A stretch of DNA of 64,000 nt from Candidatus Hydrogenedentota bacterium (GTDB lineage: Bacteria > Hydrogenedentota > Hydrogenedentia > Hydrogenedentales > JAGMZX01), in NCBI GenBank assembly GCA_029556545.1, contig JAKQEQ010000049.1, forward strand, positions 1 through 64,000, written 5' to 3'. Below the pieces are notes generated by a model. The model had not been told where the DNA came from, did no database searches, and saw only the letters and a list, made by a program, of their open reading frames with translations. The translations under genes were made by a program, and so were the position numbers. Below, one piece after another: positions 13,282-41,205 of this stretch (its first letter is position 1; the number at the start of each line of letters is the position of its first letter).

Positions 13282-14760
13282 ATGCGACCTGTACTCTTCC
13301 TGGCCATTGGGTTTTCAGCCGCCATAGGTGGGGCCGAGGAATCGGCATACTCTCCGGATGCACGGGAAATCAGCGCATTGACCGAGATGTTAAGCGATGT
13401 GCTCGAGGGCGTCGAGAACGTCGAGGCGGCCGTCCCGGCGCAGTCCGCCGGTGAAGCTATAGTGCTTGACGCGCGGCGATGCGTCCAGTTGGCCCTCGAA
13501 CGCAATGCGCAGGTCTTTGCGACGGCGGCGGACGTGGCCGCGCGCGAGGCCCAGCACGGCCAGGCAAAGTCCTTGCGTTGGCCGCAGATCAAGGGGCACG
13601 CGGTGTACTCGTATATCGAGGGGCTGCCCGTGGATCTTTATTCGACCGGCGCGCTGAGTTTTCTGGCCGAATCGATCAGCGCCGAGAAATGGCAGGTGAA
13701 CGCGGGGTTCTCTCTCGATCAGGTGCTATACGCGGGCGGACGCATCCGGGCGGCGTCGCGCGCCTCGAAACATCTCGCGGAATCCGAGGCGTGGAAGCGC
13801 GAGGTGGTGCTGGCGGAGCTCGAATTCCAGGCGCGGCAAGGGTTCCACGATACACTGCTGACACGGGCGCTGGTGCTTGTGGCGGAAGAGACGGTCGCCA
13901 CCTTTGAACGCCACCTGGCCGACGCGCGCCAGATGCTCGATGTGGGGTTGATCAGCGATTTCGAGGTGTTGCGCGCCCAGACCGAGGTCGGGGCGCGTGC
14001 GGCGGACCTCGAAACCGCACGGGGCGCGGAGCGGATCGCCGTCGTCAACCTGCTGCGCATTCTCGCCATGCCACAGGATACGCCGGTGGTCCTGGACGGC
14101 AAGGTGGAATGGACGCCCCTCGATGCGCCGGTTTCAGCGCTGATTGAGGAGGCGAAACTGAATCGACCGGAGCTGCGGGCCCTCGAGCGCGGCATCGCGG
14201 CGGCGCGCGAGCAGGTCACGGCGAAACGGGCGGCGTACCTGCCGAGCGCGGGCGCGAAGGTGCTTTGGGAACAGATGGAGGGCGGCACGTCCGTACTCCC
14301 CGAGGGCTGGACCTTCAACGTCGGTCTGGAATGGGAACTGTCCGCGGGCGGGCGGCGGAAACAGGAAGTCATCGAGGCGCAGGCGCAGTTGCGCAGCCTC
14401 GAATATCAACGTGAGGACGTCGCGCGGCTGGTCGAGCTCGATGTGCGGCAGGCGGCGTTGCGCGTGCAGGAATCCATCGCGAAGATTCGCGCGGAGAAGG
14501 GCACAGTCGCTCTGGCCGAAGAGGGCCTGCGCATGGCGCAGTTGCGGTTCCAGGAAGGCGTCGGCACACAAGTCGAGACGCTCGATGCCGCGTTGGCCCT
14601 GACCGGCGCGCGTACGCAACTGGTCCGCGCGCTGCGCGATTATGCGGTCGCCGTAGCCGCGCTGGACAAGGCGCTGGGCCGGTCGTGGGGGAACCGCGAG
14701 CGGCCCACGCCAAGATCAGACGGTTCGGACCGATCGGACCGATCGGACGGATCAAATTGA
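13282..14760 (+). CDS. TolC-like outer membrane protein
   Basis: The 492-residue protein has a signal peptide (MRPVLFLAIGFSAAIGG) and the two-fold long helices of TolC-family efflux channels: VLDARRCVQLALERNAQVFAT in the first half and LIEEAKLNRPELRALERGI in the second. It should sit in the outer membrane as a trimer. The ATG at 13282 is preceded by GGGAAAGG and a plausible promoter at 13200-13229. No pump partners are adjacent. The last 15 residues are odd: a 9-base DNA repeat encodes a Ser-Asp-Arg-rich tail. Confidence 0.85.
   Translation: MRPVLFLAIGFSAAIGGAEESAYSPDAREISALTEMLSDVLEGVENVEAAVPAQSAGEAIVLDARRCVQLALERNAQVFATAADVAAREAQHGQAKSLRWPQIKGHAVYSYIEGLPVDLYSTGALSFLAESISAEKWQVNAGFSLDQVLYAGGRIRAASRASKHLAESEAWKREVVLAELEFQARQGFHDTLLTRALVLVAEETVATFERHLADARQMLDVGLISDFEVLRAQTEVGARAADLETARGAERIAVVNLLRILAMPQDTPVVLDGKVEWTPLDAPVSALIEEAKLNRPELRALERGIAAAREQVTAKRAAYLPSAGAKVLWEQMEGGTSVLPEGWTFNVGLEWELSAGGRRKQEVIEAQAQLRSLEYQREDVARLVELDVRQAALRVQESIAKIRAEKGTVALAEEGLRMAQLRFQEGVGTQVETLDAALALTGARTQLVRALRDYAVAVAALDKALGRSWGNRERPTPRSDGSDRSDRSDGSN
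14722..14748. repeat. 9-base tandem repeat at gene 3' end
   Basis: About three copies of a CGGACCGAT-like 9-mer occur inside the last codons of the TolC-like gene, followed by the palindrome GATCAAATTGATC. The unit resembles, on the other strand, the GTCCGACC repeats at 41144-41205. Confidence 0.5.
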
Positions 14761-22957: not shown

Positions 22958-24148
22958 TCAACTTTCCTCGTCCTGCGCGGGTTCGCGCACGTATGCGCGC
23001 CGGGCGGCAAAATAGAGGTCTTCGAGTCCCACCACCGCCACCCCCTGAAGCGCAGCGCGGGCGGCGGCGGCGTCAAGCAGGGTGACCGCGCTGCCGGGAG
23101 GGCTGCCCGCCGTATCCGGGAGGGTTTCCGCGGCGGCGGCGGCTCCTTGCGCCAGATGCTCGTCAATTGTCACGGCGTGATGCGCCGCGATGGCGGGAAC
23201 ATGGGCGGCGACCATAGCGGCGGTCGCATCGCGGGGCGGCGCCTCGAGTGTCACGACATGAACACGCCGGCGCAGGGGCGCTTCCAGAAAGAGCGGCAGG
23301 TGCCGCGGCAGGAGCGTCCCAAGGATCGGAATGCCGCGGTCCAGCGCGTTCGCGAGGATCAGCGGCCCATGCCGCATGTCGCACACGGCGAGTTCCGCGT
23401 GCTCGAGCGCGAGAACCCGACGCGGCTGCCCCTGCATTTCCTGCAGCAGTGCACCGAGCAGGTTCTCGCGCTCGCCTTCGAGCACCACACCGGAGAATAA
23501 CCGTTCCAGATTCACGGCGAGAAGCGCGAACTCGGGGTCCCGCTCCGTGAGCATGCGCGCCACGCCGTGCAGCAGGTTCGTCTTGCCCGCGCCCGACTCG
23601 CCCGTCACGAGCGCGAAGCGCGATTCACCCCACCGCCTGACGCACGACGCCGCTTCGATCACGGCTTCGTCGCGGGCGACGCACGGCCACGCCGTTCCCT
23701 CGCGCGCGCGTGCCGCAAGGTCGTCCGCGATCCCCGCCAGCAGTCCGGCGCCGTCGGCGTCGCGCAGCGCGGGCGGCGCGGGCGCATGCAACACCGGTTC
23801 GCGCCCCTGCGAACCGAGAAGGTCCAGGACGCGCTCCATGGCCCGGTCCCGGGCGCGGGTTCCGCTCGGTTCGAAAAACAGGGCCTTCCAACCGCCCGCG
23901 TCCCAGCCGCGCGCGAAAAGCCGTTGGATTTCGGGGTTGCCCCCCGTGTAGGCAAGGTCGGCGTCCACGAGCACAAGGACTGCCTCCTTCTGCGGCACGA
24001 GTTTCAGGAGCAGGTTCGTTCGGGACTTCGAGAAGTGGTCCGCATGGACGGGGACGCCCCGCAGCAGGGTGGCGTCCCGATCGCTTATGTCGATCGCCAC
24101 CTGGAGCCGTTCCAGGCGCTTGGCAAGACGAGCGGTGAACGGTTGCAT
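22958..24148 (-). CDS. stand-alone ClpB/ClpA D1-like AAA+ ATPase of the tagging cluster
   Basis: The 396-residue protein ends the cluster. Residues about 155-390 align by eye with the first AAA+ domain of ClpA/ClpB: VARDEAVIEAASCVRR, Walker A GESGAGKTN (183-191), VNLERLFSGVVLEGERENLL, HHAVTIDEHL, and LLDAAAARAAL. The Walker B region reads VLALEHAEL where FIDELH is normal, so the acidic pair is Glu-His; hydrolysis may be weak or lost. The 150-residue N-terminal part is not a Clp-N domain and I do not recognise it. There is no second AAA+ domain, M-domain or ClpP loop. GAGGAGGGG precedes the ATG, 14 bases after the upstream stop. It may be a remodelling or regulatory ATPase for tagged proteins. 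Confidence 0.7.
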   Translation of the reverse strand: MQPFTARLAKRLERLQVAIDISDRDATLLRGVPVHADHFSKSRTNLLLKLVPQKEAVLVLVDADLAYTGGNPEIQRLFARGWDAGGWKALFFEPSGTRARDRAMERVLDLLGSQGREPVLHAPAPPALRDADGAGLLAGIADDLAARAREGTAWPCVARDEAVIEAASCVRRWGESRFALVTGESGAGKTNLLHGVARMLTERDPEFALLAVNLERLFSGVVLEGERENLLGALLQEMQGQPRRVLALEHAELAVCDMRHGPLILANALDRGIPILGTLLPRHLPLFLEAPLRRRVHVVTLEAPPRDATAAMVAAHVPAIAAHHAVTIDEHLAQGAAAAAETLPDTAGSPPGSAVTLLDAAAARAALQGVAVVGLEDLYFAARRAYVREPAQDEES

Positions 24149-24162
24149 GGGAAGGCCCCTCC

Positions 24163-26043
24163 TCAGGCCACGCAGTCCGGCGCACGTTCCATGTTACGCG
24201 TCCGCCAGACGTAGCGGCTTTGGTCCGCAGTCACGCGGACCACTTCGCAGCCCGCGCTGTCGAGGCCGACGACGCGCAGTATCGTCGCCCGCTGACCGAC
24301 AAACTGATCCATGTCCGCGTTCCAGTTCTGATTTCCGTCGACCGATTCGTGGCGTCCGAGAATGATGGGATCCCCCACACTGAAGCGCCCCGGTTGCTCG
24401 CCTGGAGCCGGTCGTCTTCCCTCGCGCCGTATGAGAGACTCGAAGGACGGGGGCATGCCGAATTGCGCCGCCGCCATGACACGAAGCCGCTCATCGTCGC
24501 TCTTCCATTCCTCGCGGGTGGTCAGCGGGTCCGACAGATCAAGCCACTCCCCCGTACGCGCATTGAAGATACCGCTCCAATCCGCGTTCGAACCGCGGTT
24601 GCCCGCCAGTTCCTTGATCCACTTGCCGCGCAACGCGGCGCGGGTCGTCGCCGGCGGCGTCGTCATGGCCTCGTCCACGCGGTCCACGCCGGGCGCATGA
24701 TGTTCAAGCAGGCCGGCACGGTCCATCTCGGCGAAGATGCCGCCCTCGCCAAGTCGCCCGAAGCAGGTATCGGCCTCGAAGAGCCGCAGCCGGAGGTCGA
24801 GGAATGCATCCAGATCGTCCCACGTGAGGTCGTGCCGACGCAGGACGGGCGTCAACCGCCTGACGCGCGGGGCGGCGGGGCTGTCGCCCGTAAGCGCGTC
24901 CTGGAGCGTGATGCTTATTGGGGTCTCGGGCTTCCGGCGCTGCAACACGGCGCCGACCTGTTGTACGACATTGGACCAGACCGCGATCTGGTCCCAGGTC
25001 AGCCCCTGTCGCCGCGCCATCTCCGTGTAGATCGCGTACTTGATTGCCCAGTCCAGTTTCGTGGCGGCGGCGGCCGCGCCCCCTTCCTCAAGCAGGTCCA
25101 GCACGGCTCGCCACCTGCCGCAGAGGGCTTCGGCCCACTCCGGCATGAACGGTTCGCCGATGGCCATCTCCGCCAGATGCAGGTAGTGCCGCTGGATGTC
25201 GAGCGCGCGCACGGACCGACCGGTCTCGGTCTCCGCCGTGGCCCGGCGACAGGTCGGGTCATTGGCGAAGTCGCGCATGGCTTCGAGCGGCGCCCGCAGG
25301 CGCATGCCTTCGCCGGGGCGAAGCCCGGCGTCGACCATGGCCAGCACGAGGGCGGTGGTCCCGTGGCGCAGCACGGCGGCTTCCTCGGAATGGAGGCTTT
25401 CGCCGCAGTACAGGTGCAGCCGATGCCCCGACCGCGCGAGCGGCTCGTCTTTCGTGTGGAAGATGCCCCGTGCGTTGGTCGAGTGATAGGAGACCACGTG
25501 ACACAAGTGCGCGACCCGGGGCGACAGCGTGAAGTTGGCCCCGAGCGAGAGGTTGCTGAAGCCGCCGCCGCCGGTGTAGATCAGGCGCGACGCGAGGTGG
25601 GAGACGAGTTCGTTGGGCAGACGATCGGGGTTGCTGGTGTACCTGTAGCTGCCATGACAGCCCCATGTCGCCTGCGACACCCCGACGTCGTAGCCGATGT
25701 TGTTGCGGTACACATGAGCCGCCGCGACGGTCGGGTTCTCGCGTCGCAACTCCTCGGCCAGCCCGACCAGGATGCGGTCCGCCGCGAGTTGCCAACGCAC
25801 GACGTCCCAGGGGCTGGTCACTTCGGGACTCGCGATCTCAGGATGGCCGCCGCAATCGATGTAGAAGCGGCTGCCGTTCTCCACAAACATGCCGCCCGGG
25901 CCCGCGCCCGGCAGGTAGCGCAGGGTTCGCTCCGCCGCGTGATACAGCATACCCATGGCATCGCTCTGATCGACGCGCGCGCCGTCCTGGTAGAAGGCCG
26001 AGAGCATGTATTCCGTCTCGACCCCCATCACGGTTTCGGCCAC
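24163..26043 (-). CDS. PafA/Dop-family protein (Pup ligase or deamidase), with extra C-terminal domain
   Basis: The 626-residue protein belongs to the Pup ligase/Dop family of glutamine-synthetase-fold enzymes. The N-terminus has the metal/ATP motif GVETEYM (Glu9, Glu11), and SRFYIDCGGHPEIASPE contains Asp63, at the place of the catalytic Asp of PafA and Dop. HTKDEPL and RLHLYCGESL match the later conserved NTRDEP and RLHV(I)xGDSN blocks, although the latter is divergent. No long Dop-loop follows the first strand, so a ligase role is somewhat favoured. Residues about 555-626 form an added beta-barrel-like domain (FSVGDPIILGRHESVDGNQN). The start is GTG 26043, two bases after the pup stop, with GGAG inside the last pup codons. 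A later ATG (26028) would cut into the motif region and has no ribosome binding site. Confidence 0.85.
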   Translation of the reverse strand: MAETVMGVETEYMLSAFYQDGARVDQSDAMGMLYHAAERTLRYLPGAGPGGMFVENGSRFYIDCGGHPEIASPEVTSPWDVVRWQLAADRILVGLAEELRRENPTVAAAHVYRNNIGYDVGVSQATWGCHGSYRYTSNPDRLPNELVSHLASRLIYTGGGGFSNLSLGANFTLSPRVAHLCHVVSYHSTNARGIFHTKDEPLARSGHRLHLYCGESLHSEEAAVLRHGTTALVLAMVDAGLRPGEGMRLRAPLEAMRDFANDPTCRRATAETETGRSVRALDIQRHYLHLAEMAIGEPFMPEWAEALCGRWRAVLDLLEEGGAAAAATKLDWAIKYAIYTEMARRQGLTWDQIAVWSNVVQQVGAVLQRRKPETPISITLQDALTGDSPAAPRVRRLTPVLRRHDLTWDDLDAFLDLRLRLFEADTCFGRLGEGGIFAEMDRAGLLEHHAPGVDRVDEAMTTPPATTRAALRGKWIKELAGNRGSNADWSGIFNARTGEWLDLSDPLTTREEWKSDDERLRVMAAAQFGMPPSFESLIRREGRRPAPGEQPGRFSVGDPIILGRHESVDGNQNWNADMDQFVGQRATILRVVGLDSAGCEVVRVTADQSRYVWRTRNMERAPDCVA

Positions 26044-26045
26044 GA

Positions 26046-26246
26046 CTACTGCGCTCCTCTCTGCACGTTCGCGTTCAAGAAGGCCTGACAGTTGCCAGAC
26101 AGGGCGCGCGCCGCCAAGTCGCCGCCGCGCGCGGCAATGGTTTCCGCGCGGCGTGTCATGCCCTCGAGCCGTCCACCGCCGCTTTCATCATCGGCGCCGG
26201 GCGCGCCGGCCGCAGGGGCGTCATGGGGTCTCTCTCGTAACAACAT
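26046..26246 (-). CDS. pup: Pup, prokaryotic ubiquitin-like protein
   Basis: The 66-residue frame starts at ATG 26246, seven bases after a perfect AGGAGG, and ends at TAG 26046. Pup proteins are about 60-70 residues, disordered, and end in Gly-Gly-Gln/Glu. This one has a Gly/Asp/Glu/Ala-rich first half and a C-terminus reading NCQAFLNANVQRGAQ. It matches the mycobacterial Pup end (NAEDFVRAYVQKGGQ, from memory) in spacing and in Asn, Phe, Ala, Val-Gln, Gly and the final Gln. The final Gln means a Dop-type deamidase would be needed before ligation. It sits between two PafA/Dop-family genes, which is the strongest support. The frame is nested in a longer open frame up to 26573 that overlaps the upstream gene. 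Confidence 0.9.
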   Translation of the reverse strand: MLLRERPHDAPAAGAPGADDESGGGRLEGMTRRAETIAARGGDLAARALSGNCQAFLNANVQRGAQ

Positions 26247-26294
26247 TCTTCGTCCTCCTGTTCGTATTGCGGCCACAAGGCCGCCCTCAGTTCT

Positions 26295-26330
26295 TACTCG
26301 TACTCGTACTCGTACTCGCACTCGCACTCG
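26295..26330. repeat. hexanucleotide tandem repeat upstream of pup
   Basis: Four exact TACTCG units (26295-26318) are followed by two CACTCG units (26319-26330). They lie between the stop of the upstream PafA/Dop-family gene and the pup ribosome binding site. Slippage here would change the length of the pup leader, not a protein. Confidence 0.85.
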
Positions 26331-26356
26331 ACGCTCGCACCGCGGACCGACTCCGC

Positions 26357-28114
26357 TCAGTCCGTGGCGACCACGGCGCTCGTCGCCGACGCGTAGCTCC
26401 TTCCGCTCGTTGTCGGCGGCGTCGCCAGCGCCTCCAGAATCAACTCGTTGTCGCCGACGGCAAACAACCGCTCCATCGCCGCACGGGTAAAGCCGAGCGG
26501 GTTGGCGAGATAGATTGTCTGCCGCGAGATTCCCGATCTCCCCACACGTCCCCACACCACCAGCCGGTCCCAATCGACCGAATCGATGTCATCAGGGTCC
26601 AGCGTGCGCAGCAGCATGGCGCGCGTCCAGGCGCGCGTATCCTCGGGCGGCGCCTGGACCAGGCGCGCGATGTGCGCCTCTTCGACGATCCGCTCGACCA
26701 GTCCCTCCTGCTCATAGGCCCAATACAGGCCCTCGGCTTCGTCGAGACTCGAGTACAGTTGGTCGAGATAGCGCAGTTCGGGCGACTCCCACGTGAGACC
26801 AGGGTGGCGATCCAGCGCGCCGCGGAGAATCTCGCGCTTGAGCACCCAGTCCAGCCGCCCCGCCAACGTTTCCCAGTCGCCCCGCTCGAGCCGCTCGAGC
26901 GTGTCAGCCCAAAGCGCGAAAATTTCACCGGCCCGCGGCACCGTGGCCTCGCAATCGCCGGACGCGACAAAGGGCGCGGCCTCCTCGAGGAAGAGGCGCT
27001 GGAGCTCGACGGCCGTTACGACGCGGCCGTCGGCGAGGCGCGCGCGCGCCTTGAGCGTCGGGTCGTGGCTGTAGAGCAGCCCCGCCTCGACCGGATCGTC
27101 GAGCATCAGGCGCCCCTTGGTCCTGCCCGCCTCGAGCATCGCGAGAACGATCTGCAACACGCCGATCTTCAGGAGGCATGCCGTGTGGGTGAGATTACTG
27201 TCATAGAAAATACAGTGGAGGCGGCGATAGCGCGGGGCCTCCTCCTCGTCGCGGCGGTAGCTCCACCCGCCGCACAGCGCCTCGTCGCGGGAGTTCACCA
27301 GAGGCCGCTGCACGGTAGTGGCGATGCCCGTGAGCGCCTCCATGAAGTCCATACGCTGACTCAGTTGGTACGCGACCGGCGGCGCGCCGTTCTCGCTGCC
27401 CACCTTGCCCTGGCCAGTAAAGACGATGCTCGATACCTGGTACGCGGCGAGATAGAGCATGGGATACAACTTGCGGTGGAATATGTCCTCCCAAAGTTTT
27501 TCGGTCAACAGCACGTTGACGTGGCTGCCGTACGAGTTACCCCGGCCGTCGCTGTTGTTCGCCAGCACGACGACGCGCTGCCCTTCCGGAAGCCTCGCGT
27601 TCGCCCGTCGCATCGCGCCGCGCGCGACGCGCAGCATGGCGTGCCACGCCGCCACCCAGTCATGGGCGTTCGTCACCTCGGGCAGGCAAATTTCCAGGTG
27701 TCCTAGATCAATATAACAGCATCCACCGTTCTCCGCCAAGAAGCGCCGTCCCCAGTCCTGCGGGTCAAACGCGCTATATCCGGTGGAATACGAGTACCCG
27801 TAGTCCGCGCCCGCGTTGCCGCCCCAGTTGCCGTAACCGGAACTGAAACCACCGCCGCCGTACCCTGCCGAGACCGATTGCCCGCCCCGCGCGCGCGCCG
27901 CGCGGCACGCTTCGCATTGGCACGCGGATCGCCCGGCAGAGCGCGGCAAGCCTTGGATTTCGCGCAGGAGCGCGTGCGCGGCCTCGCCGCCCGTGCCTTG
28001 GGAACGTTCGAGTCCCTGGATGAAATTGCCGAGTTCGATATCGCCGCCGCACAATTTGACGACGCGCCGCGGCGTCTTCCCGGCGCCTCCTCCGGTGCTC
28101 TTCTGCATTCTCAT
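26357..28114 (-). CDS. PafA/Dop-family protein with Gly/Tyr-rich insertion
   Basis: The 585-residue protein is a second Pup ligase/Dop-family enzyme. GGDIELGNF (Glu27) corresponds to the IETEFG motif and CCYIDLGHLEICLPE (Asp136) to the catalytic Asp block. NNSDGRGNSYGSH, FTGQGKVG, NSRDEAL, and YRRLHCIFYDSNL follow in the order expected. Between them, residues 35-120 are a large insertion containing SACQCEAC and a Gly/Tyr/Ser-rich run. It occupies the place where Dop has its regulatory Dop-loop, and the FTGQG block also resembles Dop, so I lean to depupylase/deamidase, but weakly. The stop is 110 bases before pup. A dispersed repeat separates it from the upstream ATPase gene. Confidence 0.85.
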   Translation of the reverse strand: MRMQKSTGGGAGKTPRRVVKLCGGDIELGNFIQGLERSQGTGGEAAHALLREIQGLPRSAGRSACQCEACRAARARGGQSVSAGYGGGGFSSGYGNWGGNAGADYGYSYSTGYSAFDPQDWGRRFLAENGGCCYIDLGHLEICLPEVTNAHDWVAAWHAMLRVARGAMRRANARLPEGQRVVVLANNSDGRGNSYGSHVNVLLTEKLWEDIFHRKLYPMLYLAAYQVSSIVFTGQGKVGSENGAPPVAYQLSQRMDFMEALTGIATTVQRPLVNSRDEALCGGWSYRRDEEEAPRYRRLHCIFYDSNLTHTACLLKIGVLQIVLAMLEAGRTKGRLMLDDPVEAGLLYSHDPTLKARARLADGRVVTAVELQRLFLEEAAPFVASGDCEATVPRAGEIFALWADTLERLERGDWETLAGRLDWVLKREILRGALDRHPGLTWESPELRYLDQLYSSLDEAEGLYWAYEQEGLVERIVEEAHIARLVQAPPEDTRAWTRAMLLRTLDPDDIDSVDWDRLVVWGRVGRSGISRQTIYLANPLGFTRAAMERLFAVGDNELILEALATPPTTSGRSYASATSAVVATD

Positions 28115-28134
28115 GACGATCCCTTCTTCTTCTG

Positions 28135-28220
28135 CGTTCGTAGTCCAGCCTTCAGGCTGTCTTGTTCGTAGTGCAGCCTTTAGGCTGTCCTAAGCGCAGA
28201 CTAAAGCCCGTACTACGAAC
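28135..28220. repeat. two CGTAGT-type hairpin units between operon genes
   Basis: Two related units (CGTAGTCCAGCCTTCAGGCT and CGTAGTGCAGCCTTTAGGCT) are followed by an inverted end (GTACTACGAAC). They lie in the 111-base gap between the Mpa-like ATPase and the second PafA/Dop-family gene. A third copy is at 4304-4331. They could form transcript hairpins inside the operon. Confidence 0.7.
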
Positions 28221-28225
28221 TGTGT

Positions 28226-29884
28226 TTACGCCACATTCAAGTACCGCCTCGGCCGCACCACGCGCGGCGTAATCGGCTCGACGCTCACGACCTGCACGTC
28301 CTGGGGCAAGTCCGGCACATAGGAACGAATGTTCTGCGGCGTGAGCGTCGTGCGGAGTTGTTCGAGCGCTTCCGCAACGGCATTCTCGACGTCCTCGACG
28401 GTGATTCCCGATGCTCCGGTCGCAATCTCGCGGCGGCAGGCGCTGCGCCGCGCGGTGCGGCAGACCTGCTCGAAGACGCGCCCGCTCGCAAGTTCCCGCG
28501 CGCGGATGGTGCGGGTCTGGCTGTCGGCAAGACGAATCTTGCACACCGCGTTGTCGCCGTTCGGCGCGTAGAAACGGGAGACCGCCACATCAATCACGTC
28601 TTCCCGCGTTCCCGCGGCGTCGTGACCGTTGACCGCATAGGGAAGCGACTCGGGCAGGTGCACGCCGAAGATGGCGCGCCCGGCGTCGAGGTCCGGCGGC
28701 GGCACGTAGATTTGCAGGTCGGAAAGGCGCTGCATGAGCGCCGGGTCCAGCAAGTCCTTGCGGTTCGTCGCCGCCACGATGATGCCCGGAAGCCGCCCGT
28801 TAAAGCCGTCAAGCCCCTCGAGCCAGCAACTCGTCACGTCGTCGCGCCACTTGTTCAAGCTGTCCCCCCGGACGCGCCCCATGCTCTCGGCGTCGTCGAA
28901 GAAGGCCACCCAGTCCTCCTCGCGCCGCAGCATGTCAATCAAGCGCCGGATGTTCTGCTGGGTTTCGCCCACGTATGCGCTGAGGTAGTCGCTGGGCTGG
29001 ATGTGGGCGAACTTGAAGCGGCGGCCGAGCAGCCGCGAGCATTCCGCGGCGATGAAGCGCGCGGTGGTCGTTTTCCCGCAGCCGGGCGGTCCCCAGAAAA
29101 GGATCGAGCTTCCGAGTTCGAGGCGGTACTTGGCGGCCACGTCCGGCTTCTCGTACCTCCCGAGAATGAGGAGGTGGATATCCTCCAGCATGGCGTCCAG
29201 GCCGCCGATCTGTTCCCGCCTGATATCGGGCGCCTCTTCGAGGAAGATGCGGCGCGGCTCCTTGCGTTCAAGCCGCTCATAGACAAACCACGTGTTGTGG
29301 TCCCAACGCACCAAGTCGCCCGGCTCGAGCACCGTATCCAACAGCGCGCCGGCCCGGTGCAACACGACCTCCTCGTCCCGCCAGCGGACCACGACACGCG
29401 CCGCGTCGATGTTTCGCTCGAACGACGCGATCTCGCCGCAGGGCGGCGGTCCCAGCGCCGACCGTTCCAGTACGACATTCAGGTCATGCGCCAGCAGCAC
29501 CTCGCCGCCGATGTCCGCGGGCGAGAGTTCAACCTCGTTAGCGATGGCCACGACGCGCCGGGCGGAACCGTGCGCGACGACCGCGCGGGTCCCTTCGCGC
29601 GTCTCGATATGCCCGAGGAAGACCGCCGGGTGCCACGGCGGCGCCAGCGCCTCGCGCTTCAGTTCCTCGAGCGTCCCCGCGAGTTCGCGGTTCACGCCGT
29701 GAAGTTCCGTCACGGTGGCGCCGAGTGTCTGAAGCCGGTCGAGCATATACCGATCGAGCAGTTCCGCCTTACGCGGCGCGGTCGCGCGGAACTGGTTCAT
29801 CAGCATGAGCTTCTCATCGATGCCCGGCGCCCTTTCGCCCACGGCCCCGATCATTTCGAGAAAACTCTGGTCTGGTATCGACAT
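28226..29884 (-). CDS. Mpa/ARC-like AAA+ ATPase
   Basis: The 552-residue protein follows the plan of Mpa/ARC, the ATPase that unfolds pupylated proteins for the 20S proteasome. It has an N-terminal coiled coil (about 38-80), two OB-like segments (about 85-205), then AAA+. The AAA+ part has EQIGGLDAMLEDI, Walker A WGPPGCGKTT (264-273), YVGETQQNIRRL, and sensor AATNRKDLLDPAL. Walker B is VAFFDDAES, so Asp331 replaces the usual Glu. The C-terminus ends RRYLNVA; Mpa ends in Gly-Gln-Tyr-Leu, which docks the 20S core, so the docking Tyr-Leu is followed by three more residues. AGGAGG precedes the ATG, 12 bases after the JAMM gene stop. Confidence 0.85.
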   Translation of the reverse strand: MSIPDQSFLEMIGAVGERAPGIDEKLMLMNQFRATAPRKAELLDRYMLDRLQTLGATVTELHGVNRELAGTLEELKREALAPPWHPAVFLGHIETREGTRAVVAHGSARRVVAIANEVELSPADIGGEVLLAHDLNVVLERSALGPPPCGEIASFERNIDAARVVVRWRDEEVVLHRAGALLDTVLEPGDLVRWDHNTWFVYERLERKEPRRIFLEEAPDIRREQIGGLDAMLEDIHLLILGRYEKPDVAAKYRLELGSSILFWGPPGCGKTTTARFIAAECSRLLGRRFKFAHIQPSDYLSAYVGETQQNIRRLIDMLRREEDWVAFFDDAESMGRVRGDSLNKWRDDVTSCWLEGLDGFNGRLPGIIVAATNRKDLLDPALMQRLSDLQIYVPPPDLDAGRAIFGVHLPESLPYAVNGHDAAGTREDVIDVAVSRFYAPNGDNAVCKIRLADSQTRTIRARELASGRVFEQVCRTARRSACRREIATGASGITVEDVENAVAEALEQLRTTLTPQNIRSYVPDLPQDVQVVSVEPITPRVVRPRRYLNVA

Positions 29885-29896
29885 AGTTGCGTCCTC

Positions 29897-30952
29897 CTAT
29901 GACGAGGCTTCGCCTCGTCCGCCATCTGCCCGCAGCATGTGAAAACCACGCTGCAAAATCCGCGTACGCCGCCACCCGTAGAGGTCGAAGCGCAAGCCTC
30001 GTTGCCCGTCCGTGACGACCAGCGCGACGCTGTAAGCGTGCGGGAACAACGTCGCGTGAACTTGCTGGTCCGCCGCGCTGAAGAAGCATTCTAGGGAACA
30101 GGTCGCGCGCTTCTCCGGCGGGCAGTCCTTGCACCACTCCTTCGCCGGGTGCGAGTGGTACCACCCGAGGGGCGTCTCGGAACCGCCGCGCAGTCGGATC
30201 GCGTCCCGCGCGGCGGCCCAGGTTTCCCCGGTAAACGTAAGCGAGGCGCTGTCCGCCTGGACATGTTCCGCGGGCAATTGCGCCGTCACCTCGGCGAATA
30301 ACTCGCCCGCGTCCGCGTCGCGGCAGAGCCGCCCAATGAGCATGCCGCCCGTCTCGCACGGTCCGGCGTCTCGCACGAGCGCCGCAATCCGTTCCAGCAT
30401 CGAGGCGGGGAAGAACACCGGGAAGTCGTCGGTCGTGTCGGGCCCGCAGACCATGGACCGCGCGAGGTACGGATCGAGCGCGCTTGCATGGACCGGCAAC
30501 GGGTCGCCCGCCTCGCGGATGCGCACAGAACCGTCGTCGCTCGGCCCGCCGCAGCCATTCTTCTCGTGCGCAAGCACGCCGTACTGGAACGTATCGCCCT
30601 CCTTCAGCACCCCCCGCGCCACCAACTGCACCGAAGCCGCCTCGGCCAGCTTGCGGAAGTAGGTGATTGGCACAATCACGCCGCCGTCCGCGTCCGGATC
30701 GGGGCCGGCCGCGACGTTCTCCAGCGCCACCTTCACGCCCGCCACGTGCGGCCGGCCCGACTTCGTATCCCAGATAGGCTGGACAACACCGTCGCTGTGA
30801 AAGGCGTCCGGCGACAACCGGCCCCGGCGCAGCGCGGTAAGCCGCGCGTCCTCGTAGGCGGGGCCCCAATCCGGCTCGACCGCGGCTTCGCCAAGGCGGT
30901 CGCCGTCCTCCTTGTAGAGCGTCAGGATGAAGCTGTAAGAGCTTTCAACCAT
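29897..30952 (-). CDS. JAB/MPN (JAMM) metallopeptidase of the tagging cluster
   Basis: The 351-residue protein has a C-terminal JAMM domain with all expected zinc ligands: Glu200 (ETGGMLIGRL), HSHP with His266 and His268, and Ser292-Ala-Ala-Asp295. Such peptidases cleave ubiquitin-like tags from precursors or targets. Four Cys residues (274, 277, 285, 289) in the loop between HSHP and SxxD could form a zinc knuckle, which is unusual. The first 150 residues form a separate domain I do not recognise. I chose ATG 30952, preceded by GAGAGGG, over GTG 30970. Its last codons lie in a hairpin (29901-29919). Confidence 0.9.
   Translation of the reverse strand: MVESSYSFILTLYKEDGDRLGEAAVEPDWGPAYEDARLTALRRGRLSPDAFHSDGVVQPIWDTKSGRPHVAGVKVALENVAAGPDPDADGGVIVPITYFRKLAEAASVQLVARGVLKEGDTFQYGVLAHEKNGCGGPSDDGSVRIREAGDPLPVHASALDPYLARSMVCGPDTTDDFPVFFPASMLERIAALVRDAGPCETGGMLIGRLCRDADAGELFAEVTAQLPAEHVQADSASLTFTGETWAAARDAIRLRGGSETPLGWYHSHPAKEWCKDCPPEKRATCSLECFFSAADQQVHATLFPHAYSVALVVTDGQRGLRFDLYGWRRTRILQRGFHMLRADGGRGEASS
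29901..29919. other. intercistronic hairpin at JAMM gene end
   Basis: GACGAGGCTTCGCCTCGTC forms an 8-bp stem with a 3-base loop within the last codons of the JAMM gene, just before the ribosome binding site of the Mpa-like gene. Confidence 0.55.
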
Positions 30953-30971
30953 ATTCAACCCTCTCTTCACA

Positions 30972-30988
30972 GCGGGCGCGTCGCCCGC
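30972..30988. other. intercistronic hairpin between Ub-like and JAMM genes
   Basis: GCGGGCGCGTCGCCCGC forms a 7-bp GC stem with a 3-base loop. It is 5 bases past the Ub-like stop and 20 bases before the JAMM ATG. It may protect or pause the transcript. Confidence 0.5.
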
Positions 30989-30993
30989 GATCC

Positions 30994-31266
30994 TCAGCCC
31001 GCCGCGATATCCCTCTGGATTGTTAGAGCATCGTTTGGTTCGAGCACGTCGCCGACGATCTCGCTGTTGTGCAAATGTCGGCCTTCGCGATCGAGGCGGG
31101 CGGTCCAGACTGTTTCCTCGCCATCCCCGGGATTCGCCGGGAGATGGAGCCGGTCAAGAATCCGGCCAAAGGCCTCGCCCCACGAGGCTTCAAGCGGAAG
31201 TTCAGTCACGTAACTCCGCTGGCCGGTCATGTCTCTGACCCGCACGCTCACAGTTTCTGCTGCCAT
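30994..31266 (-). CDS. YukD-like ubiquitin-like beta-grasp protein
   Basis: The 90-residue protein has the beta-grasp order: two N-terminal strands (VSVRVRDMTGQ, SYVTELPL), a helix (WGEAFGRILDRLHL), then strands with TVWTARLDREGRHLH and a final LEPNDALTIQRD. This fits YukD/ubiquitin-like proteins of prokaryotic E1/E2 operons. The C-terminus is Ile-Ala-Ala-Gly, a single terminal Gly rather than Gly-Gly. It could be used without cleavage, since Gly is already last. GGAGGTGA precedes the ATG at 31266. It overlaps the end of the upstream orphan gene by 19 bases. E1, E2, RING and JAMM genes in the same run support conjugation. Confidence 0.8.
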   Translation of the reverse strand: MAAETVSVRVRDMTGQRSYVTELPLEASWGEAFGRILDRLHLPANPGDGEETVWTARLDREGRHLHNSEIVGDVLEPNDALTIQRDIAAG

Positions 31267-32174
31267 GAAATCACCTCCTCTCGGACCCGGTTCGAACCCC
31301 GCGCCTGTCCGGCCTCCGGGGACCATCCCCGACGGCGCAGAAAGGCGCTTGCGACGCGCGGACTGCTCAAGGCGAGTAGAGGCCCGCCGCACAAGCCCGC
31401 GGCCACCGTCAATGCTTCGAGCACGCGCCCCAACAGGAAACTCTGCGGCCGATCCTCCCACTGGTGCTCGAATCCGACCCCCTCGTCCGTCGTCACCGGG
31501 CGCACCAGACGGACCAGCCCCGAAGCCGCCAGCAGCAGACTGCCGGCGGCGGCGCGACACGCGGGGTCGACGCCCTCGGGCGCATGGAAGCGCCACTGCG
31601 CGCGCGGCGGGGAGCCGCACGTCAGCAGCACGCGCTCGGAACAGCGAGCGCGCCCCACCTCGACCGCCACGTCGCCCGTGGCGCGGGGCGCGCTCTGCCA
31701 TCCTGCTTCGGCGCAGAGTTTGGCCCAGTCGATTGTTTCCGCGTCGCCTTCAAGCGGCGCCGCGCAGGACACTGCCGCCCCCTGTTCGTGCCATGCCTGG
31801 CGTATGCCCTCAAGCGCGCGCGCCACCGGAGATCGCAGGTCCACTCCGCGCGTCAGCGGGATTTCCGCGAACAACCTGGGCTGGCCGCCGTCGCCGATGC
31901 CGAAGCGCACCCCACCCCGCAACGTTGCGTTGCGCTCGATCAACGCCAGCGCCCCCTCGGGGCTGTCCTCCAGAAGTTTGTGTATGGCTTCCGAGCACGG
32001 CGCCCGCAACAGAAGCCAGTCCGGTTGCAGGCGCGCCCCGCCGCGGACCATCACGCCGTTCTTCGTTGTGAACGCGAACGCGTCCGCACCACACGGCTCG
32101 ATGCCCGCGCCGGCCTCCTCGAAGGCGTCGCGCACTGCCTTCAACCACGGATTCGCGGAAGTTGTTGTTATCAT
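31248..32174 (-). CDS. orphan two-fold protein of the tagging cluster
   Basis: The 308-residue protein is not recognised. It seems built from two similar halves of about 130 residues. Each half has a helix, a strand-rich part, then a helix-turn with a run of small hydrophobics: LLEDSPEGALALIERNATLR in the first, AAGSLLLAASGLVRLVRPVT in the second. That layout recalls YbjN or type III secretion chaperone-like folds, but I cannot confirm it. The start is ATG 32174 with AGGTGA upstream; GTG 32183 is possible. It lies between the E2-like and Ub-like genes, 9 bases after the former and overlapping the latter, so a role as tag-carrier or substrate adaptor is possible. Confidence 0.7.
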   Translation of the reverse strand: MITTTSANPWLKAVRDAFEEAGAGIEPCGADAFAFTTKNGVMVRGGARLQPDWLLLRAPCSEAIHKLLEDSPEGALALIERNATLRGGVRFGIGDGGQPRLFAEIPLTRGVDLRSPVARALEGIRQAWHEQGAAVSCAAPLEGDAETIDWAKLCAEAGWQSAPRATGDVAVEVGRARCSERVLLTCGSPPRAQWRFHAPEGVDPACRAAAGSLLLAASGLVRLVRPVTTDEGVGFEHQWEDRPQSFLLGRVLEALTVAAGLCGGPLLALSSPRVASAFLRRRGWSPEAGQARGSNRVREEVISWQQKL

Positions 32175-32183
32175 GGCGCTCAC

Positions 32184-32702
32184 CTATGATGCCTCCGCCG
32201 CACGCACGTTCACCGCGACGCGCCGCCGCTTGAGGGGCCGCTTGTCAACCGGAAGCCGATCGAGGCATCGCCGCCCCCATGCCGCGGCCTCGTGGTTGAG
32301 CGCGTCGCCCCAGTTGACCTTCTGATAGGTCCAGATATCATAACACTGGTACAGTATATCAACTAGCTGTGTCCCTTCGCCGAGGCGACCCGGGCAGATG
32401 AAGGGCGCCCTAATTTGCGGGTGCCAGGCGTGGGGCGGGCACAACCAGGTGAGTACTTCGAAGGGCGTGCAGCGCTGCAGATAATCGTCCGGAAACCATA
32501 TGCCGACGTCGCAGAACGGCGCCTCCCCGATCTCCCCCGTCACCGGGTCACGCACGAGGCCGCGCGCGTGAAAACGCGCAATATACTTCCGCACGGGGTC
32601 TCCGGCAAACGGCTTGAGTTCAAGAATGTCGCTCTGGTCCGCGAGTTCCATTGCCGCGACCAAGTTGCGTTCGAGAAACGATCTCGTCTGATAGTCCAAC
32701 AT
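32184..32702 (-). CDS. E2-like (UBC-fold) conjugating enzyme
   Basis: The 172-residue protein has the E2 landmarks: the beta-meander ending with WFPDDYLQRCTPFEVL, then PPHAWHPQI (His94-Pro95) and the presumed catalytic Cys103 in FICPGRLGEGTQLVDILYQ. Bacterial E2s of E1/RING operons share the HPN-like and C-x-G-R-like segment followed by a helix. Eukaryotic E2s have HPN with Asn 10 residues before Cys; here Asn is Gln. The ATG at 32702 overlaps the E1 stop by one base (TGATG) and has GGAGG upstream, so translation is likely coupled. The tail is basic (KRPLKRRRVAVNV). It should take the Ub-like protein from the E1 and pass it on with the RING protein. Confidence 0.8.
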   Translation of the reverse strand: MLDYQTRSFLERNLVAAMELADQSDILELKPFAGDPVRKYIARFHARGLVRDPVTGEIGEAPFCDVGIWFPDDYLQRCTPFEVLTWLCPPHAWHPQIRAPFICPGRLGEGTQLVDILYQCYDIWTYQKVNWGDALNHEAAAWGRRCLDRLPVDKRPLKRRRVAVNVRAAEAS

Positions 32703-33838
32703 CAGACCTTCCTCCACGGCGCGTGCGCGAAGCCGTTACACGCCAGTTGCAGGTGGACCGGACTCCGGTCCGGCGCGGACACCGTAAACACGTCGCCGGG
32801 GCGCAGGCCGAGTTGCGCGAGACTGCGGCGCCGCTCGGCGGCGCTGAGTTCGGTCAGCACGAGTTGATCGACGAGGTCGAAGCCCGCGGCGATATTGCGT
32901 TCGCCGCACAACCGGCACAGGCGCTGCCGCGCCGTGAGGCGGTCCGCGAGTCGCAGCGGGATCGCTATACGGCCACAGCCGTTCGCGCAAGTCAGCGCCC
33001 GCGTGAACCGCCGATGTTCGAGGGACAAGGCGCTTGGCTCGCGGGACAGCGCCGCTTCCGCGAACACGTCGCCAAGGGCCACATCCTCGGGGCGCACGTC
33101 CAGGATGCGGATATCCCACCGCTGATGATCAAAGCGGCACGCGGGATTCCGCGTGAAGCGCGTCACTGTGCAGGTCTGATTCCGAAGATCGAACATCGCT
33201 TGGCGGCTGACGGCCGGCGCTTTCAGGCCCGTCCCTAACAATGCGCTCACCTCAATGGCCTGGAGGCCGGCCGCCAGCGCGCCGAGCGCGGAAGGCGCAT
33301 TCGTCGCGGCAGTCGCCGCGGTACTGCCATCGCAGTGGTATTCCTTGGCCAGGTTCCGGTAGTGGCCCTCGTGCCACGCACATTCCAGGCACGGCGCGTC
33401 GTCGCCGGACAGGTACACACTGACCCGCGCCAACAAGTCAGGGCCGTCCACGGCAACGTCGACCAGCGGCAACCCGAGCCGCCACGCCACCTGGTTCATG
33501 TAGAGGCGCGCACCACGGGAATCGACACAAGAGACGAGTATCCCGCCTCGCAACCAGCCCCAGGGCACGTCCTCGATCCGGCCGACGAAGGCCGCGGTCG
33601 CGCGAACGCCGAACCGGCGCAACCAACGCGCTTGTACGGCCGCCTTCGGCTTGCCGACATCGCACGGCAAGATCCGCTGTGAAACGAGGTTCTTGGCTTC
33701 GTAGGAATCGTAATCCACGAACAACACGGGGCCGGCCCCCGGGATACTGGGGATCAATGCGGCGAACGGGCTGCCGGTATTGCCGCAGCCGACCACGATG
33801 AGCGGCGCATTGGCGTCTATGACGACTGTGTCAGACAT
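32702..33838 (-). CDS. E1/ThiF-like adenylating enzyme
   Basis: The 378-residue protein has the E1/ThiF/MoeB Rossmann core. It shows VVGCGNTGSP (17-24), VDYDSYEAKNLVSQR (41-55, matching DxDxVexxNLxRQ), VSCVDSRGARLYMNQVA and a CLEC segment near residue 153. The C-terminal third has two Cys pairs (CANGCG and CRLCG) that may bind zinc, plus a short beta-rich end (PGDVFTVSAPDRSPVHL) that could hold the E2. It should adenylate the C-terminus of the Ub-like protein. The ATG at 33838 overlaps the RING gene by 8 bases (ATGTCTGA). An upstream start at 33982 would only extend into the RING gene. Confidence 0.87.
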   Translation of the reverse strand: MSDTVVIDANAPLIVVGCGNTGSPFAALIPSIPGAGPVLFVDYDSYEAKNLVSQRILPCDVGKPKAAVQARWLRRFGVRATAAFVGRIEDVPWGWLRGGILVSCVDSRGARLYMNQVAWRLGLPLVDVAVDGPDLLARVSVYLSGDDAPCLECAWHEGHYRNLAKEYHCDGSTAATAATNAPSALGALAAGLQAIEVSALLGTGLKAPAVSRQAMFDLRNQTCTVTRFTRNPACRFDHQRWDIRILDVRPEDVALGDVFAEAALSREPSALSLEHRRFTRALTCANGCGRIAIPLRLADRLTARQRLCRLCGERNIAAGFDLVDQLVLTELSAAERRRSLAQLGLRPGDVFTVSAPDRSPVHLQLACNGFAHAPWRKV

Positions 33839-34409
33839 GGCGGTAGAGTTCCTCGGGCGTCCACACGAACGTCCCGTCCAACGCCGGAAGCGGCTGGCGG
33901 CAGCTCTTACAGGTGGGGGCGATCGTGTAGCAGGGCAGCGGCCGATCTGGATCGTCCGGCATGTCGTGGTACCAGGCGCCACACCGGCTGCAACGCCGGA
34001 CCTGTTGGCCAGGCAGAAGTTCCAGAAGACAACAGGGGCAGGTCACTTGCCGCCCGAGGTCCGGCATGACCTCGGATTGCGATAGCCGCTCGGTCGAGAA
34101 GAACGCGCGCACGCCGCCCGGCAGCCGGATTTCGTCACGATCGGCGAGCAAGTGAATGCCAAGGCGAATCGCTTCGCCATTCACACGCACGGCTGGGTCC
34201 CCGGTCAGGATCGCCCAGTGACCCTCGCCGTCCTGGTCGCATGGCATCAACGTGGTCGCTCCCTGCAGCGCGTCCGCCTCTTCAATCGGGCGCAGGGCCA
34301 CCGCGCCGTCGTCCATTTCGATCAGGCCGGCCATCACCTGATCAAGGCTGAGGGGTTCCCAGACGCGCTTCGCGTCTTCATTCTTGACTTGCCGCCACAA
34401 TTGCGCCAT
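33831..34409 (-). CDS. FHA-like plus RING-like zinc protein, candidate E3
   Basis: The 192-residue protein heads the cluster. Residues about 34-106 look like an FHA domain, with AVRVNGEAIRLGIHLLADRDEI as the NG and GDxI-type strand pair. The C-terminal part has eight or nine potential zinc ligands: CPCC (124-127), CSRC (140-143), His148, Cys160 and CKSC (167-170), spaced like a prokaryotic RING/treble-clef domain. RING proteins bring E2s to substrates; FHA domains read phosphothreonine. So this may be a phosphorylation-dependent E3. ATG 34409 is preceded only by a weak GAGGCGG; an upstream ATG at 34478 remains possible. Confidence 0.75.
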   Translation of the reverse strand: MAQLWRQVKNEDAKRVWEPLSLDQVMAGLIEMDDGAVALRPIEEADALQGATTLMPCDQDGEGHWAILTGDPAVRVNGEAIRLGIHLLADRDEIRLPGGVRAFFSTERLSQSEVMPDLGRQVTCPCCLLELLPGQQVRRCSRCGAWYHDMPDDPDRPLPCYTIAPTCKSCRQPLPALDGTFVWTPEELYRHV

Positions 34410-34520
34410 GATGCCGCCGCCTCGCCGTTCGAAACTTTCGACTGACTGTCGAGCGCGCTTTGCGCCCTTCCAACGCATTGATTATCCGATCTCAGGAATG
34501 GGGATGCGGCGATCTCGCGA

Positions 34521-34629
34521 GTGTTACAGTCCGTGGGCGTTCATATTGAGCAGGATAGACGGGGGTAACACGGTTGGGGTGGGCGGCGGTGTTACACGGG
34601 CGTTACAATCGCGATACGTGGTGTTACAG
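34521..34629. promoter_or_regulatory. iterated GTGTTAC motifs upstream of the tagging cluster
   Basis: Five copies of a GTTAC-type word lie in the 264-base region between the upstream oxidoreductase and the RING gene. They are GTGTTACAG 34521-34529, GTAACAC 34565-34571 (inverted), GTGTTACAC 34589-34597, GTTACAA 34602-34608 and GTGTTACAG 34621-34629. The GTTACA starts at 34591, 34602 and 34623 are 11 and 21 bases apart, near whole helical turns. This is a plausible operator array for the cluster. The core promoter is not obvious. No gene is supported at 34410-34673. Confidence 0.6.
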
Positions 34630-34673
34630 CGTATTCGGGGATTCGCAGCGGTCCGCGTTTGTCGGCGTTGGGC

Positions 34674-35903
34674 TCACATCCGATCGAAGCTTGGAATGTC
34701 CAGTTGTTCGCCGTCTTTGAAGCTTGATTGATGCGCCACGATGCCGGGCACACAGAACGCCAACGACTCATATAGATCGATAGCCGGCTCACGGTCCTCG
34801 ACAAGCGCGTCGATGAATTCGGCGGTAATGAACGCGTGCGACCGGCCATGCCCTTTGTCGTATCGCATCTTCTCCGGGACCTCCCGCCAGTAATCGGGCA
34901 GCGCGGCGACGCTTGCGCCGTCGTCGTACTTCATGGCGAATGGCTGGCCGGCGGGCCCCTCCATATATAACGCCGCCCTACTGCCCAGCCATTGCGCCCG
35001 CTCGCCGTGGGCGTGGATGTTCCACGCCACGTTGCAACGGAACGGATGCCCCTTGTCGGTCAGGAACATGGCCATGCCGTTGGTGAACGGGTTGTTGTAC
35101 ACGTTGTCCTGAAACGCGGGCTCGACGGTCTCCCGCAGCCCGACGCACGAGACCTTCGTGAGCCGCTCGCCCGTCACACCGACGAGAAACGCCGTCGAAT
35201 GCGTCGGATACAGCATCGGCGGGAAGCCGTAGCGCCACGTCTTTTTTCCGTCGTGCCACGACAGCGCGTCCCGCCCGTAGCCGATGAGCGGATGGTAGTA
35301 TTCGCCTTCGCTGTAGACCATTTCGCCGAAATCGCCGCGCGCGAAGAGCCGCCGCGCCGTGATGGTTTCCCAGCGGTAGTAGCTCGTCTCCGCGTTCATG
35401 TACTTGAGCCCGGTGCGCTCCTTGACCTCCTTCATCATCGCCGCCTCCTCGAGGGTCATACACGCGGGGCACGCGCTGATCACGTGCTTGCCGTGATCCA
35501 TGCACAGTTTCACGTGCCGCGCGTGGTCCGGCGCGGGCGTGAATACGGCCACGGCGTCTATTTTCGGATCGAGCACGAGCTTTTCGAGGGACTCATAGGC
35601 CTTCTCGCACTCGTAGCGGCCCTGCAACTGCGCGCGACGGTCCGGGATCAGGTCGCTCACCGCCTCGACAATACAATTCGGGTGTTCGTGCCAGTGAAAA
35701 GACAGGCCGAAGCGCCCGCCCACGACCCCGATGCGGACCTTCTTGTCCGCGCGCGACGTCCATTCCGGCAGCGCCAGTTCCTCCAGCGATTGCGCCGCAA
35801 GCGCGCCCGCCGCCAGTAACGCCGCCCCGGACGCCAGAAACCCGCGCCGGTCCATCGTCCCCGAGAATGCGCTCCCGATGCCGCGAGCCTGTTCCTTCTT
35901 CAT
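34674..35903 (-). CDS. Tat-exported Gfo/Idh/MocA-family oxidoreductase
   Basis: The 409-residue protein begins with a Tat-like leader (MDRRGFLASGAALLAAG, near residue 17). The Rossmann region is slightly altered: IGVVGGRFGL. The middle has AVFTPAPDHARHVKLCMDHG and SACPACMTLEEAAMM in place of the usual EKP block, so the usual Lys is missing. The C-terminal half has GEYYHPLIGYG and a Trp-rich segment. It should act outside the cytoplasm on an unknown substrate. It lies upstream of the tagging cluster on the same strand, separated by 264 bases with a repeat array, so separate regulation is likely. Confidence 0.82.
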   Translation of the reverse strand: MKKEQARGIGSAFSGTMDRRGFLASGAALLAAGALAAQSLEELALPEWTSRADKKVRIGVVGGRFGLSFHWHEHPNCIVEAVSDLIPDRRAQLQGRYECEKAYESLEKLVLDPKIDAVAVFTPAPDHARHVKLCMDHGKHVISACPACMTLEEAAMMKEVKERTGLKYMNAETSYYRWETITARRLFARGDFGEMVYSEGEYYHPLIGYGRDALSWHDGKKTWRYGFPPMLYPTHSTAFLVGVTGERLTKVSCVGLRETVEPAFQDNVYNNPFTNGMAMFLTDKGHPFRCNVAWNIHAHGERAQWLGSRAALYMEGPAGQPFAMKYDDGASVAALPDYWREVPEKMRYDKGHGRSHAFITAEFIDALVEDREPAIDLYESLAFCVPGIVAHQSSFKDGEQLDIPSFDRM

Positions 35904-41143: not shown

Positions 41144-41205
41144 GTCTGACCCGTCCGACCTGTCTGACCCGTCCGACCTGTCCGACCCGTCCGACCTGTC
41201 CGACC
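41144..41205. repeat. tandem 18-base repeat
   Basis: About 3.4 copies of GTCTGACCCGTCCGACCT-like units are head to tail (41144-41161, 41162-41179, 41180-41197, and a partial). The half-unit is 9 bases (GTCCGACCY). It lies between two minus-strand genes. A related 9-mer array is at 14722-14748. Confidence 0.85.

Follow-up and report, generated by a model that had tools for sequence, protein, structure and literature searches.

Predicted operator sites in front of a ubiquitin-like/Pup-ligase gene cluster: a TGTAAC repeat array in a Hydrogenedentota bacterium

The window analysed here, 64,000 nucleotides from a Candidatus Hydrogenedentota bacterium (genome G000, 6.1 Mb), carries at 22958-34409 a complete set of ubiquitin-like conjugation genes (E1, E2-like, RING-like, Ubl and JAB), arranged in a single run that also includes an AAA ATPase and two Pup-ligase-family genes. 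An intergenic leader with a repeat array lies between this cluster and a Gfo/Idh/MocA oxidoreductase gene. Conservation is given relative to a sister species (G001), the only genome of the same genus that was found, and site positions on the coding strand are counted from the ATG at 34409.

34674-35903, minus strand: Gfo/Idh/MocA oxidoreductase gene, upstream of the leader
34410..34673, minus strand: intergenic leader and putative promoter region with the array, 264 bp, from the Gfo/Idh stop (34674) to ATG 34409
34623..34628, minus strand: TGTAAC site at -219, 21 bp from the next site; absent from the sister species
34602..34607, minus strand: TGTAAC site at -198, pairs with -187 as TGTAAC-N5-TGTAAC; absent from the sister species
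34591..34596, minus strand: TGTAAC site at -187, position conserved in the sister species (-185)
34565..34571, plus strand: inverted partial copy, GTAACAC on the plus and GTGTTAC on the minus strand; not conserved in the sister species
34557..34565, minus strand: conserved block CCCCCGTCT, between the two conserved TGTAAC sites
34523..34528, minus strand: TGTAAC site at -119, position conserved in the sister species (-118)
34481..34486, minus strand: GATAAT, candidate -10 element, conserved
33831..34409, minus strand: first cluster gene, RING-like, 192 aa, weak Prok-RING_1 match
within 22958..33982, minus strand: E1 (ThiF), E2-like, 311-aa protein, Ubl-like, JAB and AAA ATPase
within 22958..33982, minus strand: further, two Pup-ligase-family proteins and an AAA-type ATPase

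The names E2 and Ubl derive from sequence reading and synteny, with no Pfam match, and the Prok-RING_1 match of the first gene has an E value of 0.015 here and of 7e-6 for the Verrucomicrobia homolog (locus L091). The gene order of the cluster is kept in the sister species and largely so in loci of Verrucomicrobia, Armatimonadetes and Planctomycetota. In the sister species it reads Gfo/Idh, RING-like, E1 (∼62% identical to the E1 here), E2-like, 311-aa protein, JAB, AAA, two Pup-ligase-family genes and AAA-type ATPase; the query for the short Ubl gene came from a slightly wrong frame and did not retrieve it there.

Five copies of GTGTTAC, one of them inverted, had originally been predicted in front of the cluster. 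We could confirm the array, but since one of the five copies is GCGTTAC (34600-34606), the word common to all of them is GTTAC. Exact GTGTTAC is present at 34521-34527 (+), 34565-34571 (-), 34589-34595 (+) and 34621-34627 (+), and only two more exact copies occur outside the array in the 64-kb window. The 6-mer GTTACA/TGTAAC describes four of the five copies in a single orientation (-219, -198, -187 and -119 on the coding strand), while the inverted copy is without the last base. The anticipated spacing of three copies was likewise found, with GTTAC starting at 34591, 34602 and 34623, i.e. 11 and 21 bp apart, and the close pair reads exactly TGTAAC-GCCCG-TGTAAC (34591-34607). The fourth direct copy lies 68 bp off, which corresponds to ∼6.5 turns, and is therefore out of phase with the other three. 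In agreement with the statement that no gene accounts for the array, a codon-hexamer gene scan calls none there, and the first cluster gene begins only at ATG 34409.

An equal density of GTTAC in other intergenic DNA of the genome had been named as the outcome that would speak against the prediction. In a background sample of 424 kb, from which a home-made hexamer gene scan delimited 157 intergenic stretches (72 kb), GTTAC occurs at 1.02 per kb in intergenic DNA outside the leader, and the 264-bp leader contains five copies vs 0.27 expected, so that the outcome named as refuting did not occur. TGTAAC is present on the coding strand four times vs 0.06 expected at an intergenic rate of 0.237 per kb (Poisson P ∼6e-7). 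The arrangement TGTAAC-N5-TGTAAC was found once in 6.1 Mb, namely in the array, and two of the five direct TGTAAC pairs with a gap of up to 30 bp in the whole genome also belong to it, while palindromes of the form TGTAAC-N(0-30)-GTTACA are missing genome-wide.

Measured between the Gfo/Idh stop and the following ATG, the leader comprises 257 bp in the sister species vs 264 bp here, and the alignment of the two extends over their full length. Only 1 of 1000 shuffles aligned as well and none of 20,000 placed the two TGTAAC sites alike, whereby these nulls leave shared ancestry unmodelled and show homology and words in conserved blocks, not a formal probability of function. The two sites agree in position within 2 nt, and CCCCCGTCT and GATAAT are in register across both leaders. 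The leader of the sister species lacks the N5 pair, the -219 site and the inverted copy, and retains only the single sites at -185 and -118. Most likely, to judge from this alignment, the -187 and -119 sites are ancestral in the genus and those at -198 and -219 are particular to this genome. The sister species also carries 447 extra bases before the RING-like ATG (L032 394-840), in which a 108-aa open reading frame exhibits no coding signal by the hexamer model of G000. The assembly is doubtful there, because an N-run and a duplicated stretch are present inside the RING-like gene (L032 1083-1182).

A short word could also have recurred by chance and be without function, two of its copies having survived because the species share a recent ancestor. 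We regard this as unlikely, albeit the most serious of the alternatives, since 9 of the 157 intergenic stretches contain a 7-mer with four or more copies inside 110 bp, the sister species is the sole comparison, and half of the copies are not conserved. However, the other dense 7-mers in these nine stretches are mostly tandem repeats with a unit of 7 or 9 bp, or words that overlap themselves, and the leader outside the conserved blocks has strongly diverged between the two species. Moreover, the choice of TGTAAC as the word was made on this genome and preceded its test in the sister species, where three copies in ∼709 bp have a P of ∼7e-4 at the intergenic rate of G000.

Other repeats of this genome were considered as well. 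A genome-wide repeat family was rejected, since GTGTTACA occurs 44 times in 6.1 Mb vs 72 times for the reversed control. The sole other close pair of this 8-mer among the matches listed is the inverted pair GTGTTACA-N12-TGTAACAC in non-coding DNA (L002 1501-1528, corresponding to C9:93658-93685 of G000). The one-mismatch pair TGCAACTGGCGTGTAAC at 32735-32751 lies in the coding end of E1, is not common to the sister species and was judged a coincidence. Tandem repeats of 9 bp, GTCCGACCC and GATCGGACC, are located between genes or at gene ends at 41144-41205 and 14714-14753, and comparable 9-bp arrays exist elsewhere in the genome (L063, L068 and L072).

We consider it probable, at roughly 0.6, that the repeats are operator sites in the promoter region of the ubiquitin-like/Pup-ligase cluster, a prediction drawn from the sequence. 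A DNA-binding regulator would recognise TGTAAC (GTTACA) and control a leftward promoter, whose -10 element is probably GATAAT at 34481-34486, with a start near 34474. The end of GATAAT is 71 nt away from the ATG here and 69 nt away from the corresponding ATG in the sister species. No good -35 element was found in the leader, and no sigma-54 promoter of the -24/-12 type (TGGCAC-N5-TTGC) was seen when the leader was read by eye. Relative to the putative start, the proximal site would be centred near -51 and the upstream ladder would span ∼-119 to -151. The two added sites (-198 and -219) would give rise to the 11/21-bp ladder on one helix face in this genome. Against operator sites it counts that the conserved pair is 68 bp (∼6.5 turns) apart and not in phase, that the N5 pair, the -219 site and the inverted copy are confined to this genome, that the conservation concerns one sister species only, for which some word retention is expected from ancestry anyway, and that the cluster itself encodes no regulator. 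As a kind of element, a conserved array of operators is ordinary.

The element might instead serve the upstream Gfo/Idh gene, by 3' end processing, termination or antisense control, as the Gfo/Idh stop lies almost equally far from the conserved sites in both species (77 and 74 nt) and the 447-bp insertion of the sister species parts them from the RING-like ATG. This appears quite improbable to us, since the conserved blocks run on to the ATG, GATAAT included, and no intrinsic terminator was found between Gfo/Idh and the cluster. Least probable are words that act in the transcript as a hairpin or as sites for an RNA-binding protein: in the predicted fold, pairing is possible between the inverted and the proximal copy, but the sister species does not retain the inverted arm, and RNA structure and a known RNA family were both rejected, as the fold is no better than shuffles (z -0.14) and no credible Rfam match was obtained.

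For the operator sites, a search for the GTGTTAC-type words upstream of homologous clusters had been suggested as a check. An E1 query against genome contigs gave no loci, and a search with a Pup-ligase alignment gave six. Homologous clusters are present in Verrucomicrobia (L091), Phycisphaerae (L092), Armatimonadetes (L093) and Planctomycetota (L094); genomes G054 and G057 have related Pup-ligase genes on contigs that begin inside the cluster, so the upstream comparison excludes both. Neither TGTAAC nor a comparable array was found upstream of the Verrucomicrobia and Planctomycetota clusters, the two with upstream sequence present. In these two phyla the check was negative, and conservation of the word across phyla was rejected. 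In Planctomycetota a divergent sigma-54 activator gene (L094 1387-3093) adjoins the cluster and a -24/-12-like sequence, TGGCATAACTTGTGC, lies upstream of the RING-like gene (L094 3377-3391), features which suggest a different control of the same cluster. Since TGTAAC is missing in both loci and a sigma-54 activator is found in one of them, regulation of the cluster seems to differ by lineage. An open reading frame next to the Verrucomicrobia cluster (L091 2023-2760) that looked winged-helix-like by eye was dropped, having no Pfam match, a predicted structure of low confidence (pLDDT 41) and no relative in G000 or G001.

The original prediction spoke of binding sites for a dedicated regulator. 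Putative binding sites are supported by the two positions kept in the sister species and the genome-unique close pair, whereas the word "dedicated" was not borne out, as the cluster genes conserved in both species have no match to a DNA-binding family in Pfam and the word is missing upstream of the Verrucomicrobia and Planctomycetota clusters. The other genes of the window that were scanned did not yield an ordinary transcription factor either. A single genomic occurrence of the close pair is consistent with a narrow regulon without proving it.

Half-sites of KdpE, which belongs to the OmpR/PhoB family, are 6-bp direct repeats with a 5-bp gap (PMC3264566). Paired half-sites with such a gap are present at 34591-34607, but they are not kept as a pair in the orthologous promoter of the sister species. 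The genome of G000 has three Trans_reg_C matches, two of which are ordinary OmpR/PhoB response regulators (C134:154671 and C151:134424); neither is near the cluster, and the flanking stretches fetched around both contain no TGTAAC. In two species of the same order, G037 (L109 1501-1517) and G034 (L112 1148-1164), GTTACA-TTCRR-GTTACA lies 64-111 bp before orthologous OmpR/PhoB response-regulator genes, where this 17-bp pattern is likely an autoregulatory site. The word is absent upstream in two of four orthologs of the G034 response regulator, an ortholog is absent from G000 and G001, and the order taken together shows no enrichment of TGTAAC-N5-TGTAAC. By analogy, the geometry of the array and the pattern in G034 and G037 provide a lead toward an OmpR/PhoB regulator rather than proof, and naming a response regulator of this family as the binder is a tentative guess, well short of even odds. 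It is doubtful that combined ubiquitin-like and Pup-like tagging is governed from this array by a dedicated switch, whether two-component (OmpR/PhoB-type) or signal-responsive in another way. If this were true, the array would provide a first transcriptional handle on tagging systems of this class. If the repeats are operators, a defined DNA bait and few candidate regulators would help to establish when bacteria turn on a composite ubiquitin-like/Pup-like tagging cluster.

The coupling of ubiquitin-like conjugation genes with Pup-ligase-family genes is mentioned in an excerpt of PMC7159879. Like the clusters published there, the one described here combines E1, E2-like, RING-like, Ubl and JAB with Pup-ligase-family genes; unlike them it stems from another lineage, and the excerpt is silent on regulation. 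At the actinobacterial Pup-proteasome locus, the WYL regulator PafBC is encoded at the locus (PMC8223512), which shares with our case a Pup-ligase-bearing locus and the question of its transcriptional control. In contrast to PafBC, no gene of this type was found in the cluster, and the cluster and other window genes scanned gave no Pfam match to a WYL-domain winged-helix regulator. The KdpE site before kdpFABC (PMC3264566) differs from the array in the word of the half-site, in the further copies 21 and 68 bp away, in the close pair that is not conserved in the sister species and in that no response regulator is linked to the cluster. Both arrangements nevertheless have in common two 6-bp direct-repeat half-sites with a 5-bp gap, at 34591-34607 in the array, located upstream of an operon.
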